A stretch of 64,000 bases of DNA, from contig JAGTXK010000105.1 of NCBI GenBank assembly GCA_019096195.1, positions 81,324 to 145,323 of the forward strand, read 5' to 3'. The notes under the pieces were generated by a model that saw nothing but the letters and a program-made list of their open reading frames with translations, was not told the DNA's origin and did no database searches. Origin of the DNA: Boletus sp. NGJ. Taxonomy: Eukaryota > Basidiomycota > Agaricomycetes > Boletales > Boletaceae. The number at the start of each line of letters is the position of its first letter. The first letter of the stretch is position 1. The translations under genes were made by a program, and so were the position numbers. Shown here in pieces: positions 2,993 through 33,790 of this stretch.

Positions 2993-4498
2993 TCAGTACA
3001 CTGGAAATTGTGGATCCACATATTTTGCCCATGCACGTAACCCCCCTATAACATCTTTCACATCAAACACTGGGTTGAATTCACGAAGTGCTTCCGCCGC
3101 GATCTGCGAATCATTACCGAGTCGACACAAGACCACAATCTTCGAGCTGACACTGGGTGGTAGATGGGCAGAGGGATCTGCGAGCAGTTGTGGAAGTGGA
3201 ATGCCTATATGAAATTTGTGAACGATACTGGGAGGATAATGCAAATCAAACTTACTTAGTGAACCCGGTAAACGGCATATACCGAATTCAGTCTTGGGAC
3301 GAACATCAAGCAACACGCATTGTTCCTGCGATTGCAGTATTCGTAACTCCTGAAAGTAGTTGAGACTGTTCTTTTCAGCGCGGAGCTGAACACCTTACTT
3401 GAACAGAGATGCGGTCACCAGGATTTCCTGAAATTGAACCCCTTGCTTCCCAATCGGGACGGGGTCCCCCACAAAATGCGATGTAGTCAGTCTCATGAAT
3501 GGCACCCAGTCTCAGTCCATCTACCCCACAGGCAGCACATGTTGGTTTTCGTGCCCTTAGCTTGATGGTCCGGAACAGTGGCATTGACATAGCAGAGAAC
3601 AACATAAGGGAGGCTTTACCATCTGCGCTAATGACTTGTCTCAGGGGGACGAGCATCAGAGGCATTGTACACACCATGCAGACCGGCGAGGATCTTGATA
3701 GTCTCCAATGCTTGCATGACACCGATGACACCCGTAACAGCACCTAGGATACCCATCTCTTCACAACTCCCAGACATCTCTGGAGCAGGAGGTTTGGGAA
3801 ATATGCAACGATAACAGGGTCCCGACTCGCCGAGGTTGTAGATACAGAGCTGACCCTCGTATTTTTGGGCGGCACCACTGACCAGAGGTCTCCTGAGTCG
3901 AACGGCGGTGTCGGACAGAAGATACCTGGTCGGCACATTGTCTGTGCAATCAAGAATTACATCATATGGCTGCAAGAGCGCCACCGCGTTGGACGAGTTT
4001 ATCGCCTCATTGATGGGTTCCACTCGAATCGTCGAGTTGATTCTAAGGGGATATCATAAGGAGAGGAACGAGCCTGTAGTAGACACTCACTTTTTGATAG
4101 CAGCTTCCGCTGAAAGTACTTTGGACATGCCGATCGTCCCCTCATTGTGGAGTACCTGTCTCTGTATGTTGGAAAGTTCGACTGTATCATGATCAATAAT
4201 AGCTATTCGACCTAGTTCCGACTGGTAATTACGCTGATACCGCGTCGGAGAGGAAATGCTTGCCAACACCGGCAGCGGCAAGGTACTGGAGTGCAGGGCA
4301 TCCAAGACCTCCCGCACCAACTACGGCTACCGACGCGCGTTGCAGCTTGATTTGACCTTAAAGCGCCTGAATGCCTGAACAATAGAAGGAAGCATGTAAA
4401 GGACCTTGCAAACCGAAGTTGTCCAGTATCATTTGTCGGCCATAGCGAGGGTAGTCGTCGATGTGGGCTAGTCTCGGCCAACTTGCGTCGTCCATCAT
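2993..4498 (-). CDS. UBA4: UBA4/MOCS3-type adenylyltransferase-sulfurtransferase
   Basis: This protein activates the ubiquitin-like sulfur carrier URM1 by adenylation and thiolates it for tRNA wobble-uridine thiolation. The related role in molybdopterin synthesis belongs to MOCS3. Spliced in about six exons it reads: N-terminal [10 protein letters not shown], nucleotide-binding [23 protein letters not shown], the DCTDN motif, a catalytic-Cys region [10 protein letters not shown], CxxC pairs (CYRC, CAAC) for zinc, and a C-terminal rhodanese domain with active-site loop CRLGNDS ending [17 protein letters not shown]. Both half-enzymes look intact. I chose the ATG pair at 4498, because it precedes the conserved YGRQM block by about 15 residues, as in fungal homologues. 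One intron (4212-4263) uses a GC-AG border (see findings). The start is only 67 bp from the divergent APC10 gene. Confidence 0.93.
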
Positions 4499-4565
4499 CG
4501 TGGTACAGTACTCGGAGCCTGAATGGTAATAGGAGCTGCATACTCTGGGTCCTGACACAACCAAC
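4499..4565. promoter_or_regulatory. Short bidirectional upstream region, UBA4 / APC10
   Basis: Only 67 bp separate the chosen start codons of two divergent genes, so the core promoters and 5' UTRs must overlap each other or the coding ends. If APC10 actually starts at the downstream in-frame ATG near 4699, the shared region is about 200 bp. No clear TATA box is seen. Confidence 0.45.
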
Positions 4566-5496
4566 ATGTCCACACCTACTGGCAGCATACGCAACGATGT
4601 ACCAAATGTCATCAATTCCACACCGTCTGCCGTAGCTAATATGCCCAAGGACGGTCTGCCCATTATGCACCAAAGTTTGCCCTCGTGTTTGCCACCCGGA
4701 ATGACTATCCAGGGACTGAAACAAACCCTAGGTCGTATACAACCCATCCTTCCATGGCCAGATATCGGTCGTATCGCCAAGTGGTCTGTCTCCTCGTATA
4801 AATTTGGTTTTGGTGCGGAGTGCTTGAGAGACGGTGACCCGGACACCTTCTGGCAGTCAGTGCTTTCACTGCTGATTCAATTGCTGCATGTTTGAGCTTC
4901 GAGTAAGTTCCGATGGTCCCCAGCCTCACTTCATCACTATAGAGTTCCCTCGCAAAGTCGCAATTCAGGTCGATTCAATTTCCTTCCTTTGCTTTCCGAA
5001 GACCTGATTACCGGGCTGCTCAGAAACTCAGCATATATCTCAGTTGGCCACTAGATGACTCTTACACACCATCAACCTTGGCGATTCGTGCCGGCACCGG
5101 TCCAAGTGATCTTCAAGATGTTCGAGTAGCTTCCCTCGACAAACCTGACGGCTGGATCACTTTTGATGTGTCGTCAGAACTAAGTGAAGACGGAACCACC
5201 TAGTGAGTTTCTCGGTTGACTAACAGTTGTTGCTGTACTGAGGAGTGCTGTTCTCCAGCAAGCCGGTCCATGCCTATGTCCTCCAAATCATTATTGTAGC
5301 AAACCACATGAATGGTAAAGACACCCATATCCGTGGGCTGAAAATTCTTGGACCTATCGAGTGCGTAAATTCGTTACTCAGCTGGTCGAGTTACAAGCCT
5401 GATCATTTGAGACTCGTTAGGGACAATGTCACAGATGATGATGATCCATTCCCTTTCACGTCTCCTGCATTCAAAATGTATGCAACAATTCGATAG
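4566..5496 (+). CDS. APC10: Anaphase-promoting complex subunit 10 (Doc1)
   Basis: This is a substrate-receptor subunit of the APC/C ubiquitin ligase, binding D-box degrons together with Cdc20/Cdh1. About five exons join into a DOC-domain protein: KWSVSSYKFGFG, ECLRDGDPDTFW, SDGPQPHF, DDSYTPSTLAIRAG, DKPDGWITF, IIVANHMNGKDTHIRGLKI. It ends in Ile-Arg immediately before TAG, the conserved IR tail that docks on the TPR subunit APC3/Cdc27. The first intron is 4856-4907. The N-terminal 40-50 residues before the DOC domain are not conserved. ATG 4566 gives the longest form, but the ATG near 4699 (MTIQGLKQTL) is also possible. The C-terminal linker has an acidic DDDD run, possibly giving spacing for the IR tail. 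Confidence 0.93.
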
Positions 5497-25661: not shown

Positions 25662-26068
25662 GACAGACGTTAGCTGGTGAGGTGTGTATGTTCCTCTTGG
25701 TAGGCGATGGCGTGTCGGTTGCCTCGAGGTGGACCGTGCTGGACCGAGATAATCTCCGGTCTATCGGAGTTTCAATTCTCCGAGTCATGCCGAGCAGCTC
25801 CTCGACGCCAGTCCTCACCGACAATGACCGCGTGCTGTGTGGCTTTATGATAATCCAAAGGACTGCTGTAGCACCACCACACGAATCGTCAACGCTCAAC
25901 TACAGATCGGCACACGCACACGCACGGCAGACAGTCGGACTCTGAACATTTACATCTCCGACCGGCTTCGCACTAAGCTACGACGCGCTTGGACGCGTTG
26001 ACCCGTCGAGCGACACTGTGCCAACCTCAATCAGGCCCCCGCTCGTGTCTCTGTCGACGTCCACGACG
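25662..26068. promoter_or_regulatory. Divergent upstream region, NAA15 / PDS5
   Basis: About 0.4 kb between two divergent housekeeping starts. A CA-rich stretch (cacacgcacacgcac) lies near 25914-25925. No TATA box is clear, as is usual for fungal housekeeping promoters. Confidence 0.4.
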
Positions 26069-29000
26069 ATGGTGGCACAAACGCGTACCGCCACTGCGCC
26101 CTCCAAGAAGCTCACTTTCAGCGAGAAGATCGTCGGCAGGTCCCTTTCCACCGACACGCTCCTCAAGAAGCTCAAGGCCCTCCATACCGAGCTCGCAGAG
26201 CTCGACCAGGAACTCGTCGACGTGAACTCGCTCTCACCCGTGCGCTCCCAGCTCATCAACACAACCCTCCTCCTCCACAGGGATAGGGGGGTCAAGGCGT
26301 ACACCGCTTGCTGTCTTGCGGACATCCTCAGGCTATACGCACCGGACGCCCCTTATACTCAAAACGAACTCAAGGACATCTTTCAGTTTTTCTTTAGGCA
26401 GCTTGCCGCCGGGCTCAAAGGAACCGATGCTCCGTATTACAACGAATACTTTCACCTTCTCGAATCCCTCTCTACCGTCAAGAGCGTGGTGCTCGTGTGC
26501 GATCTTCCGCACGCCGACGAACTCATGACGGAAATATTTCGTGAATTCTTTGTCCTCGTACGACGCGACCTTGCAAAAAAGATAGAATTATTCATTGCTG
26601 ACATCCTCGTCGCCCTCATTGACGAGTGCCAGTCCCTCCCCAACGATGTCTTGGATACCATTATGGGACAGTTCTTGGACAAGAATACGGTGCGTCGTGA
26701 AGCACGCTGATTATGATTTCTCGTTCGTGATACCCGTTCAGCGTCTGGATCAGCCTGCCTACAGACTCGCGGTGCAGATTTGCAACGCAACATCGGACAA
26801 ATTGCAGCGTCACGTCTGCCAATACTTTACGGACATCATCGTCACCAATTCACGCGACCTCGAGTCGGAGAGCGATTTTGATGAAATACGTACTGCACAC
26901 GATCTCGTCAAGCAACTCAGCAAGTCGTGTCCGTCCTTGCTGCACAGTGTAATACCACAGCTTGAGGAAGAACTCCGTGTGGACCAAGTTCAAGTGAGGT
27001 TGATCGTAACTCATGCACTAGGAGAGATGTTTGCGGAGAAGGGTGGCTCCGATCTCATCAGAAAGTATCCAACGACATGGAACGTGTGGTTGCTGCGCAA
27101 AAACGACAAGGCACCGACCGTGCGTCTGAAACTCGTCGAGAGCGCTAGGGGACTGCTCATGAACCTGCCTGAACATAGAGAGACTGTCGAAGGCAAGCCC
27201 CTATCCCAGAACCTGTAGACGACAACCTTGACACGCTCTTGAGTAGAAATGCTTCAACTCAAACTCCTAGACCCCGACGAGAAAGTTCGTGCTGCGGTGT
27301 GCAAAGTGTACTCTCAGCTCGATTACGAAACTGCGCTTCATTATGTTTCAGAAGCACAACTTCGGGCAGTTGCTGGCCGTGGAATGGACAAGAAACATGC
27401 CGTCCGTGTAGAGGCTATGAATGCGCTTGGTAAGCTGTACGGTCTTGCATATCCGGAGATGTATGTTTTTTTTTTTCCTCTCATGAGTGTCACGGTCTAA
27501 CACATTTATATCCAGCGAGAACGGTGACTCGTCCGCGGTCAGCCATTTCGCGTGGATTCCTAATGAGATCTTGCACATCTCCAACATGACGTCTGAAGCC
27601 AAAGCTGCTGCGGAGCAAGTCATTGCCGATTATGTTCTCCCGTTACCTTCGTCTTCCACTACTTCTGCCTCTACGTCGAAAAACGTCGAGGTTGATGAGG
27701 TAGCCTGGACAGATCACTTGCTCAATACCATGCAGCATCTAGATGACCTCGCTGTCAACACAATTCTGAGTATGAGTGGGATTAAAGCAAAGTGCGTTGA
27801 TCTGTTTTTTTCATTGTGGGCAACGGGGATCAACCTCGTGTATAGTCGCCCGACCATGTATGAGCATTATCTGCAAGCATGCATACAGAACAACGTAAGC
27901 CCTTTGTGGATGTCGTCGTAGTCTTCCTTATCGGTGCCTGTTAGGGTGGCGTGATCGACGAGAACGAGGAATCGATCATACAACGTTTAAACAACGTGGT
28001 CAAACACTTGTCTCGTGCGTAAATTTCAGGGTCGGATTCAATGCATTAACCCTCCATACTAGGACAATTTCCCGATCCCCAGAAAGCAGCTGAGGATATG
28101 CATGACTTTGCCAAGGCGAACGAGAACAGGCTTTACAAGTTACTCAAGACGTGTATGGATCCTCAGTCTGATCTGAAGAGCATCGTGAAAGCCTCAAACG
28201 AGTTTCTACGGCGCGTAGAACAATCGCTCGAGTCCACCCTCTCAACGATGACAATCTTTCTCCGTCGCGCGACGCTCCGCATCGTCAACCAATCTTCCAT
28301 CTCGACCCTCATCAAGAGAGTTCAAAAGTTGGCTCCGTTGTCGAAGCATGCCCAACAACTTTTAACTTTTATATCGAAACATTGTCCGATCCTCTATAAA
28401 CCCCATGTCAGCGAACTTACAAAGGCAATCGCCGATGAGAGGAACGTGATTCTGGCGGAGGTTGGCATGCATGCACTCGCAGCCGTGGCGAAAGCTGATG
28501 AATCCCAAGCGGCATTGGATAAGTATGTTTCTTTACACTATCTTGAGGCAGTCCACTCACATGGATTTCTTGAACGCAAAAGACGAACGCTAGAACGCAT
28601 AACGCGATTTGCGCTTGGAGAAAACCCCAAAATTGCCAAGTTTGCGGCTCGCTTATTGGCTTCGTTGAAGGATCATGAAGGTCCTTGTGTGGAAATCATT
28701 GAAGTACGTGAATTTGTCGGCGCTCAATTTTGCGATATGTTCATTCCTTTAAAGTCTATCTCGGAGAAGCTTTCGGAAGCTACGCCAGAGGAGCTCGTTG
28801 CCCATACGACCGTTCTAGCACAGATGGCGCGCTTCAAGCCTGACGCATTTGAACATAGGAGTGATACGATCATGGCATTCTTGATTAAGAAATTGCTAAT
28901 GGGTCGACGGTCAAAAGATCCAGTAAGAATGCTGCACTCACTCCGGATTGAGTCCTGACTTATTTTCGTGATCAAGGAGGAAATGGACGTCGATGACGAC

Positions 29001-30805
29001 TGGGTGGAGGATGACAATATGATGCCAATGCAAAAGGCCAGGATCCTTGCGCTGAAAGTTTGCCGGAATCGGTGTCTTGCCAACGCGTCTGCAGAAACCG
29101 CATTGGAGCTTGCTACACCCGCGCTTAAAATGTTTTCAACATTACTCGAACATTCTGGATCATTTTCAGCAGATGCGCCGGACAGGTTAGGTTTTCGAGC
29201 GGCCATGGTATTTGGGACTCGGGGCTGATGCATCACACGTAGTCCGCCGGTGAAGTCACGCATGCGACTGCAAGCCGCTGTATCGCTTTTACACCTTTCT
29301 ACAGTCGAAGCGTTTGCAAACGTGATAAATAACAACTTTATATGGCTCGCGATCACAGTCCAGGTAAGGAGTCGCTTCGAACTGACGTGCTCGCTGATGG
29401 TGATGCGCATTTGCTCAGGACCCATGCTACCATGTTCGAATAATCTTTTTAACGAAACTCGTGTCTCTCCTGACCGCACGTAAACTCCCGCCACGCTTTA
29501 ACACGATACCTTTCCTTACAATCCATGATCCTGAGGCCGATATTCGAGACAGGGTGAGCCCTAGTCTACGCAATCCGGTACTGAACATTGAAGCCTTTTC
29601 TAGGCCATAGCTTATATTTCGTTTATCTCGAGATCTATCCCACTCGCCGCACGCGTCGATCAACTAGAAATAATTTTCATCCGTCTTCTTCATCTCCTCG
29701 CGCATCATCCCGATTTTTCTACCGCGCACGAGAACATGCAAGAGATAGCGAAGTGGCTATTCCTCTTCTCGTCTGGGTCCATTCTTATTCACTCGTCTCT
29801 TCTTTTAGATACATTGAGTTTTACCTCGATTTGATCGCGAGTTCTGATAACATTGCGCTCCTTTACCACCTTGCGATGAAAGCCAAGACCGTGCGTGACT
29901 CTGAATCGCATACATACAGCGAGGTGCGAAGATTTTCGCCCGACTTGCAGACGTTTGTTCAACCCCCTTGCATATCACTGAATCTAGAATCTCTATACGA
30001 CGGCAGAGCTCGCCCAAGAGTTGATCAAGGCCCGTACGCAAGCTCGCTCGTGGACCCTTCAGAGTTACCCCGGTAAAATCAAACTGCCCTCGGACATTCT
30101 GCGTGCGCTTCCGAATCCAGAATCTGTCACCAAGGTAAGCGACAAACTCCGACGGAGGTTTGTGTTGAGAGACGGTACAGGTGGTCAAAACACAATATCT
30201 ATCCGAGGAAACCGTCGCTTGGCTGAAGGAGATTAGGGGACACAAGCCAGCCGCGGCCACCAAGGTACGTCGAATAGCAGATTACATCCTCACTTGTGAT
30301 CCGCTGATGCCCTGATCTGTAGGAGAAGAAACGGGAACCAAGAGAGACGAAGGATGGCAAGTCTCCGCCTGCCAAACGTAAAGCTTCTCGAGCTCGAGCA
30401 AACGGCGCGCAAAAGTGGGTTCTCGGGCGATGTGGAGTACAGCTTCTCGCTGACGTCAAACTTCTCAACAGGCGCCTGAAGACGCAAAAGTCGGCACGAT
30501 GGAACAGTGATCAATCAGACGAAGAAGAAGAAGAATCTGATGAGGATTCTGTTCTTGATCCATCAGAGAAAGCGACGTCCCCGAGACGCTCTAGTTCGGT
30601 GCCAAGCGAAGCCGGTCAGGACAGCAATAAAGAAGAGGACGGCGGCGAACCGTCAGAACGAGAGAAGAAATTCGGTAGGAAGGCTAGAGCGAAGGCGCAG
30701 GTGAGTCACCATGCAGCGCGGTGGACCGACGATGTTGATAGGGTCGAAAAGGAGAAGATAAGCAAGCATGTAAAGAAGAGTACGACGCGACCAAGAAAGT
30801 CTTGA
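26069..30805 (+). CDS. PDS5: Sister-chromatid cohesion regulator Pds5
   Basis: HEAT-repeat protein that binds cohesin with Wapl/Eco1 and controls cohesion and loop size. It is spread over many exons. The N-terminus KLTFSEKIVGRSLSTDTLLK leads into LADILRLYAPDAPYTQNELK, YFHLLESLSTVKSVVLVCDL, SLPNDVLDTIMGQFLDKN, YVSEAQLRAVAGRGMDKK and FISKHCPILYKPHVSEL, typical Pds5 helices. The C-terminal tail is acidic then basic (SDEEEEESDED, KKFGRKARAKAQ, KKSTTRPRKS), consistent with a nuclear localisation and DNA-binding tail. An upstream in-frame ATG at 26018 would add 17 residues. The last exon may instead splice at a GTGAGT near 30700. The length (about 1,200 residues) fits the family. Confidence 0.9.
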
Positions 30806-33036
30806 CGATGTGTTCCGACGCGGTACTTGTGGATCGTGTACAGCCTATTCGTGATGCCTTGTATTGCTATGCATGTTCTATTGCTCTCGCGATCTCTACT
30901 ATTATACTTTTGATTTGTCTTCGTGCAGGTTGTGAGTTGACGCGCAGCGCCATGAATGTAAGTTACATCAATGCTGGTCGTGCATCCGTAGCGTCAAAGA
31001 CTTGGGTTTTCTATCTGCATGTGATATCCCTACAGCCTTCTGGCGTAGTAGGGATTGGAAGAAGGCGAGTGTCCCCTTTAGCTTCTTCGCTTTGAATTTT
31101 TGACTGTGGTACATCGGGCAAGCTTGGACAATGCTGTCAGTCTGTCACGGACGTGCTACTACTTGACCTCTGCACACGAGAGTGCTGGTTCAACTCAACT
31201 GTCAGGTATATTCTTTAGGGAACCATACCTTTAAACCCGTAGCTACTCTGATACCTCCCCCAGTTCTCGTACAATCTCAGTCCTGGGGCTTTACTTGGCC
31301 GCATCAGCTGTTCAACACTCTTCGCCGTGCGATCATCCATACGGTGGTGTCCAATACCCTCGTAGGCGCACAGTAACCGAGTCCCCGATCCTGAACCATT
31401 CCCCCGCACTCGATTCGCCAGGCGATGGAGGCGGAGATCCGCCAGTAACCGCGAAACGCTCTTATCGGCGCACTCCGGAGTGTGAGGTTACCTCTATAGA
31501 AACCGCCTTGTTGATGGTCTGCATCATCAGATCCATTATCGCTCACAACTGACGGTTTCGTCAGGGAGGGTATACTCGCCAAGGCGACGTCTCGATAAGA
31601 GCGTTTCGCGGCCAATGACGGATCTCCGCCTCGATCGCCTGGCGAATCGAGAGCGGGGGGTTCGGGGCTGAGGACTCAGTGACCGTGCGCCCAAGATTGA
31701 ACGCCACCATAGGGATAATTGCACGGCGAAGAGTGTCGAACAGTTGATAGTCCTAGGATTGAGACTCTACGAGAACTGAGAGACTCATCAAAGTAGCTGC
31801 AGGTTAAATACTAGAAGACTCGTTCCTATAGTGATATGGTTCCTTAAAGAACATACCTGACAGTTGAGTTGAATCAGCACTCGTGTGCAGATGTCAAGTA
31901 CTTGGCACGTTCGTGACTCGGACAAATACAATGTCGGGCCGCCAGAGGTCTTCATTGCCTAACCTCTTCTCTCACATCAACTCTGTTCCTCAATCCATTC
32001 TACTCGTGTCCGAGCGCAAAACTCGTCGACTTGTTTATGCGTGCCCTGGGAGCATGGATCGTGAATACACGCCCCCTCCGCTTGGCAGTGCGTCAGATTC
32101 TCCATACTCACCCGAGGTACTTCTGGTCAAAAAGAGGTCAGGTCCTACCGTATGGCGGGATCGACTCTTCCAAAGCACGGTTTGACCGAGCCGTCGTGAC
32201 AAACTGCGGGTATTAAATCCCCGAGGTAGCTCAATTTCATTAGACGAATGGATGCGCGTACTGGGATAAGCCTTTTTTTCTTTTCTTTTTCCCCGGGCCG
32301 CTAACATGGTTTGTTTTTGGGGGCGGGATGCGATTCGAGGACGCGTCATAGGGTGTCTCTCCACCTTTTCCAAAAGGAAGCTTTACACGAATAGGCTACG
32401 TGAGTCGTCGATTCTCATATAGATTTTGATTCCTTGTTTGATGAAACTTCTCGATCAACTCCGAGTTGCCTTGCGAGACAGTCTTAGGGGTCGATGTGTT
32501 TTCCGATCAGTGTTAACTTGCAAAGGATTGACTACCGCACGCAAGCCGAGAGCCTAGTGCCAGGACGCGACATCTCGACTGAGCCTTCCCCTTGTCAGTT
32601 TTTGATACACGCTTCTGGTGCCTGTGCGAGGGAGCCTGAAGGATATTTCAAAGTCTCAGACGCAGAAATAGTAAGCCAAATCGGTGCAGTAGGGCTCCGG
32701 ATCAAGATCAGGTACAAGTACCTGTGACAACGGCGCCGAAAGAGCAATGTTGATTCCAGGCGCGGTCGAAGAAAGGGCGATAAAGATACATGTGTCCATG
32801 TTATGTGACGAACCTTCTAATGCTATGAGAGTGCGGCGGGATACACGTGTTCCTCGTGGAAGGTCGGAGAATACTATACAGATAACAAGATGGAATTTCG
32901 GTACAGGATCACCCGAACCGTTTTACAACTTGGATGAAACCTGGATGATAAAATATTCGTGTGTTTGAGAGTGTGGGATCACGGATCGGAATACAAGATG
33001 TGGTATGTGATAGTGAAAGGGGATGTTACCCAAATA
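30806..33036. other. Intergenic stretch holding a large palindrome
   Basis: About 2.2 kb between two 3' ends (PDS5 and the CBS gene converge). No coding sequence is convincing. Its main content is the inverted repeat annotated separately. A T-rich tract (ttttttcttttctttttccccggg) lies near 32273-32297. Confidence 0.5.
31120..31945. repeat. Long imperfect inverted repeat (palindrome, arms about 350-400 bp)
   Basis: The left arm (about 31120-31490) matches the reverse complement of the right arm (about 31580-31945) over nearly its whole length, at roughly 75-80 percent by eye. Exactly shared blocks include TTCAACTCAACTGTCAGGTA, ACACTCTTCGCCGTGC, CTCGATTCGCCAGGCGAT and GCGAAACGCTCTTATCG. Homology fades gradually at the outer ends. 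The inner spacer is under about 90 bp. No transposase or clear target-site duplication is seen. It could be a fold-back transposon/MITE, an inverted duplication, or the template of a long hairpin RNA. Confidence 0.88.
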
Positions 33037-33790
33037 TCATGTACCCCGGCGAGAAACGAAATTCTGTGAGGAAATGATAAGATGGCGTCCCCACGAAGGC
33101 TGGGTGGAATACCCACCTCCAAATCTTGTGACGTCGCAACGGCAAGTACGAACTTTCTGTTGGAATCCGTCACTAGATCGCTGTCAATCCATTGCACAGT
33201 TGAGAACATCTGAGTTGACTCACCTAGCGCAAAGATATTGTCGCGCAAAAACTCCGCCAACTCAGCGAGGGGGGTGTCAGGTGTGATGATAGTGTATGGA
33301 TGTTCACTGCGCTGGAACCTGGACATGTATTCCTTGACGGAATCATTCTAATGAAATAGCCGAGGAAGGTGAGTCAACAGTAGATATGAAAAGTAGGCGA
33401 TCAAGTAAGAGAAGAACGTACTGGATTTGCTTGTCCTGCCTGCCATTTTGCTCTCAGTAAGGCAGCATCGACGTAACCAACTGGTCGTCTGTTCTTGTCG
33501 AGGACCCTGCGAGAAAGAGGGTAGGGTCAGTCGACATATGCGGAGTGAAGGATAATCACGGTATGTGAGAGAAATCGCGCTCGTATGCGAGCTCGATTGC
33601 ACGCGAGATGGATTCGTCAGCTGGGAGCGAGAAAGCTGGAGGTAGTTGGAGATCCTAGAGGGATCGATAGGTTCAGTGTGGCCTGTACAGAAACTGTGCA
33701 CACCTCCACGACTGCACCGCGGTACCTGTCTACTGGTAACATCGAGATGGTGTGTACTGCAGGAACTGCAGAGAGAATGGAGGTAGCCAT
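33037..33790 (-). CDS. Small CBS-domain-pair protein
   Basis: Stand-alone CBS pair (Bateman module), probably an adenine-nucleotide-sensing regulator; its partner is unknown. About six exons read EDLQLPPAFSLPADESISRA, YERDFSHIPVLDKNRRPVGY, VDAALLRAKWQAGQANP, KEYMSRFQRSEHPYTIITPD, TPLAELAEFLRDNIFAL, VTDSNRKFVLAVATSQDLE and end NFVSRRGT. All junctions keep phase with canonical GT-AG borders. ATG 33790 is chosen; ATG 33742 (MLPVDRYRG) is an alternative start nearer the first CBS motif. The total of about 150-180 residues is the usual size for this fungal group. Divergent from MLH1. Confidence 0.85.

Follow-up and report, generated by a model that had tools for sequence, protein, structure and literature searches.

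In the rust fungus Puccinia striiformis, 33 small-RNA loci are located in or close to predicted genes; 14 of these are long inverted repeats, some of them at tail-to-tail genes (PMC4578785). The arms of such loci consist of tail-to-tail gene copies whose complementarity is near-perfect, and small-RNA reads come from them. The Boletus locus described here is similar in that a long inverted repeat separates two converging genes and Piwi-domain genes are present in the genome. It differs from the Puccinia loci in that its arms are a diverged repeat without recognised genes.

Hairpins of fungal milRNAs are mostly short, and whether natural long hairpins trigger silencing is said to need exploration (PMC9757828). 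The palindrome of Boletus would form a hairpin as well; compared with those mostly short hairpins, it measures approximately 400 bp per side and has many mismatches.

The third comparison is with fold-back transposons such as Tetris of Drosophila virilis (PMC4079207; basidiomycete transposons are surveyed in PMC3411680). As in Tetris, long inverted arms are combined with an absence of recognised coding capacity, and few complete copies occur together with pieces elsewhere. Unlike in such elements, no target-site duplication beyond chance was seen here, and a single palindromic copy was found.

The palindrome and its setting

The window analysed is a stretch of 64,000 nucleotides from contig C99 of Boletus sp. 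NGJ, the genome of which comprises 32.8 Mb in 141 contigs. A first-pass annotation of the window had proposed an imperfect palindrome of about 0.8 kb between two converging genes. The palindrome is real and lies where it was first placed: it spans 31127-31935, in intergenic DNA, and its best inverted score is 345, whereas none of 500 mononucleotide shuffles scored above 36. The neighbours, a PDS5 cohesin-cofactor gene and a CBS-domain-like ORF (Table 1), do converge on it. The stop of PDS5 at ~30805 was placed by eye, and the score of the CBS-domain-like ORF comes from two exons joined by hand. Sixteen inverted pairs of at least 25 nt were listed in the window, and the three longest (67, 53, and 53 nt) are the palindrome's own; the remaining 13 are at most 39 nt long, and 10 of these 13 are A/T runs.

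Table 1 Features at the palindrome, with positions counted from the first base of the window
Feature	Position	Strand	Remarks
PDS5 cohesin-cofactor gene, left neighbour	26018..30805	+	Pfam PF20168 over three ORFs; several exons, ends inferred
Left arm	31127..31521	+	High identity to ~31467-31478, weaker further in
Dispersed low-copy repeat, left-arm copy	31145..31380	+	Clearest at 31145-31227; 31228-31380 weaker, above shuffles for C21 and C61
Axis of symmetry / minimal spacer	31522..31527		Weak inner similarity
Right arm	31528..31935	-	Repeats the left arm in inverted orientation
Dispersed low-copy repeat, right-arm copy	31678..31923	-	Clearest at 31834-31923; 31678-31833 weaker
CBS-domain-like ORF, right neighbour	32982..33326	-	Pfam 21.2 bits, below the cut-off of 24

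Between the full arms, 302 of 368 ungapped positions are identical (82%). When the comparison is restricted to 31127-31478 and 31583-31935, the value is 270 of 325 (83%), with 11 gaps that include gaps of 23, 7, and 5 nt; identity with gaps counted BLAST-style is 70-73%. This alignment, which had been suggested as a check, agrees with the earlier view of the arms as old and diverged and still collinear. The high-identity part stops at ~31467/31593, leaving ends 125 nt apart. Further in, the arm parts align above chance, their score being reached by 1 and 2 of 2000 shuffles, respectively, for segments that had been picked after inspection of the alignment. As this weak inner match exceeds the shuffles, the axis is placed at ~31522-31527. 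The original spacer may have been ~6 nt, which would make the axis nearly spacerless. Beyond the outer arm ends, similarity does not rise above shuffles (score reached by 239 of 500).

A coding origin of the arms was considered and rejected, as every frame of both arms contains at least one stop, although this is not a strict test. The left arm is free of stops for 87 codons at most, the right arm for 61, and the mismatches by codon position (21, 18, and 16) give no clear codon rhythm. For a 103-aa ORF across the axis, the Pfam search gave nothing at E 0.01. A known structured RNA is likewise not indicated, as no Rfam model reached its gathering score anywhere in the window. An 84-codon stretch at 31932-32183 on the plus strand begins with an ATG where the right arm ends on its outer side, and it has no Pfam match at E 1.

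Dispersed relatives and the grouping of the arms

In each arm, the outer ~250 bp belong to a diverged low-copy repeat that also occurs at five or more other loci, a lower bound as the genome search scores the best candidates only. Genome searches with the whole element or a single arm returned no match besides the palindrome itself among the best candidates scored. A pattern for the outer arm, allowing up to three mismatches, located a copy at C21:202190, and the control pattern had 0 matches. This copy aligns with the arm over ~90 bp with a score of 73, versus a maximum of 34 in 20 shuffles. With the C21 copy as query, the genome search led to copies on C61, C88, C129, and C59. When the copies on C61, C59, and C88 served as queries, and likewise when a second pattern was used, only these places came up among the best candidates, and the window arms did not. 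The tie between window and family runs via C21 and C61, and the other copies join mainly through these two.

The extent of the similarity was assessed in segments, each with 1000 shuffles per comparison. Over their outermost 100 bp, the two arms gave scores reached by 0 shuffles in all four comparisons with C21 and C61, and by 2 and 0 with C59; the match is weak with C88 (30 and 30) and C129 (12 and 1). The next ~155 bp gave 0 and 2 with C21 and 0 and 3 with C61, and less clear values with C88 (8 and 7) and C59 (65 and 41). For the inner ~100 bp, nothing above shuffles was seen with any of the five copies (106 to 755).

The proposed search for other genome copies proved the most telling of the suggested checks: related sequence is present at five other loci, in single copies. 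An inverted self-copy was sought around each of the five in the stretches compared, and none was seen. The seven copies were also combined into a sequence model, which re-finds its own seven members by construction. It gave one copy per other locus (a stretch of roughly 10 kb each) and none beyond these in the 143 kb searched, one overlap at C21 included. Two further pattern matches, C133:453481 and C130:299536, scored below 40 with the arms and with the C21 copy and were dropped. The reversed control of the pattern in question likewise had 2 matches, and the 10-kb stretch at C133 (L041) had no match in the sequence comparison or in the seven-copy model search.

An unrooted tree of all seven places the two arms in a group apart from the remaining five copies (support 100/100). 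The branch between arms and others is 0.43 in total, which a midpoint root divides into 0.32 + 0.11. Core identity is 81% between the arms, 50-66% between the arms and the other copies, and 72-85% among the five; the nearest dispersed copy, C21, has 64-66% core identity to the arms. Both arms have in common the inner ~100 bases (31381-31478 / 31583-31677), which have no counterpart in the five copies and for which the searches of the genome with each arm returned nothing further. The grouping of the two arms apart from the five copies means that a single copy gave rise to both by inverted duplication, or that homogenisation made the arms alike afterwards.

The dispersed repeat contains a TATTTAAA box and a GATTCAACTC box, which we take to be reminiscent of a solo LTR or SINE. 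This assignment was not adopted, as the flanks share at best a 7-mer (C21, C61, C59, and the two arms) and a full element was not found. The C88 copy lies ~0.6 kb away from a reverse-transcriptase ORF (RVT_1, 80.8 bits). The C129 copy lies 1.2 kb away from Copia-like pieces with Pfam scores below the cut-offs, and the ORF adjoining it is Copia-like by eye, without a Pfam match. Both neighbourhoods fit a mobile-element setting for the repeat.

Other features were noticed around the copies. The C59 copy is enclosed by a perfect 90-bp inverted repeat (L040 4592-4681 / 5102-5191; C59 about 459.6-460.2 kb), outside of which there is further inverted similarity of 73% (4474-4534 / 5281-5353); sequence comparison did not match the 90-bp repeat to the palindrome of the window. 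The C88 copy is abutted by an AT-rich palindrome of 264 bp (L038 4625-4888). Thus, two of the five other copies sit at unrelated inverted repeats, an observation made post hoc. On C21 (L023 4640-8752), Tc1/mariner-like DDE transposase pieces lie beside 76-bp inverted repeats, with a DDE_3 match of 24.5 bits that is below the cut-off of 28.6. The C21 copy itself is ~270 bp upstream of an ORF on the minus strand (L022 9428-9850), which by eye is presumably similar to an AA9 (lytic polysaccharide monooxygenase) gene and has similar ORFs nearby.

Proposed origins: inverted duplication or fold-back relic

The palindrome is most likely a decaying, transposon-like sequence. We give a probability of roughly one half to its being a one-off inverted duplication of the low-copy dispersed repeat, which has since been decaying without detectable constraint, and rank this before an origin as a fold-back element. 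The starting point would be one transposon-like copy of the repeat together with ~100 or more adjacent bases, between PDS5 and the next gene. A single inverted duplication with almost no spacer, as by template switching or fold-back repair, would have produced the palindrome, and both arms would then have drifted apart, presumably neutrally, without detectable constraint. A palindrome of this kind likely lacks a function, and read-through transcripts across it, if any, would give dsRNA by accident of shape.

The differences between the arms comprise 33 transitions and 22 transversions (55 of 325 positions). Repeat-induced point mutation, from which near-pure transitions are expected, was rejected as their source on these counts; 9 of the 33 transitions alter CpG. 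The differences are evenly spread along the arms (chi-square 13.0, 12 df, p 0.37; a weak test).

The second explanation, possible and less probable, is that the palindrome descends from a non-autonomous DNA transposon of the fold-back type (terminal-inverted-repeat only) and is now a relic. In that case, the dispersed copies would be truncated relatives or solo arms. The first-pass annotation had named a fold-back transposon as an option, and some features agree with it: two ~400-bp arms face each other about a small middle with little or no spacer, and the ORF at the axis has no Pfam match. In addition, the arm edges at 31127 and 31935 are only 18 and 12 bp, respectively, outside the points at which the arms become similar to the C21 copy; this near agreement would be better explained by defined ends, as in a fold-back element. 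The transposon remnants near some repeat copies point in the same direction. Other observations lend such an element no support. Near the outer arm ends, there are three common 6-mers, including TCGGGC, and none longer; with 593 of 1000 random stretch pairs having a common 6-mer, these are no rarer than chance. Old element copies often lose their target-site duplications. No transposase could be linked to the palindrome ends, and no second palindromic copy was among the genome matches returned, for which the best candidates were scored. Fold-back elements with few complete copies are known (PMC4079207).

Predicted hairpin and small-RNA potential

Both strands of the palindrome are predicted to fold into one long hairpin, as the first-pass annotation had anticipated. 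The folding energy is -501.9 kcal/mol for one strand (z -31.9) and -525.5 kcal/mol for the other (z -34.5; 20 shuffles each), and the longest helices have 30 and 29 pairs, respectively. The fold arises because the sequence is an inverted repeat; hence, it is no evidence of use. Machinery for RNA interference is indicated by Piwi-domain (Argonaute-type) matches above the cut-off on five contigs (C122, C40, C124, C10, and C22). As C122 carries two matches on opposite strands, the Piwi-domain loci probably number six. Small RNAs from the palindrome are thus possible, as far as the sequence indicates.

A functional hairpin-RNA locus, which would be transcribed (e.g., by read-through from PDS5) and cut by Dicer into small RNAs that silence the dispersed copies or the neighbours, is improbable. 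It would be in keeping with the strong predicted folding, the Piwi-domain matches, and the small RNAs borne by long inverted repeats at tail-to-tail genes in the rust fungus (PMC4578785). If a hairpin RNA had been kept, the differences between the arms would favour G-U pairs on the transcribed strand. However, wobble-type differences number 12 for the plus strand versus 21 for the minus strand, which is no significant excess (p 0.16) in a comparison of little power with 33 transitions from one genome. The even decay of the arms, the larger gaps between them, and the low core identity of even the nearest dispersed copy also speak against such a locus. Hence, the earlier suggestion of constraint on the arms was not borne out by these weak tests, and the sequence gave no sign that the hairpin is kept for use. 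Still more doubtful is a palindrome that acts as a small-RNA source from a dead repeat and silences the dispersed copies in trans. An assembly artefact by a chimeric inverted read or false join is very unlikely, as chimeric inverted joins produce nearly identical arms, and the arms here differ at 55 of 325 positions and by 11 gaps.

Read as an inverted duplicate of a low-copy repeat, the palindrome would be a worked case of a regulatory-looking long hairpin in which no signal of constraint was detected. It also offers a cheap place to ask if Dicer processes any long transcribed palindrome. Elsewhere in the window, the segment 20001-21000 is GC-rich (0.62) with a strong GC skew (0.34), and by eye it may contain an F-box-like gene on the minus strand.
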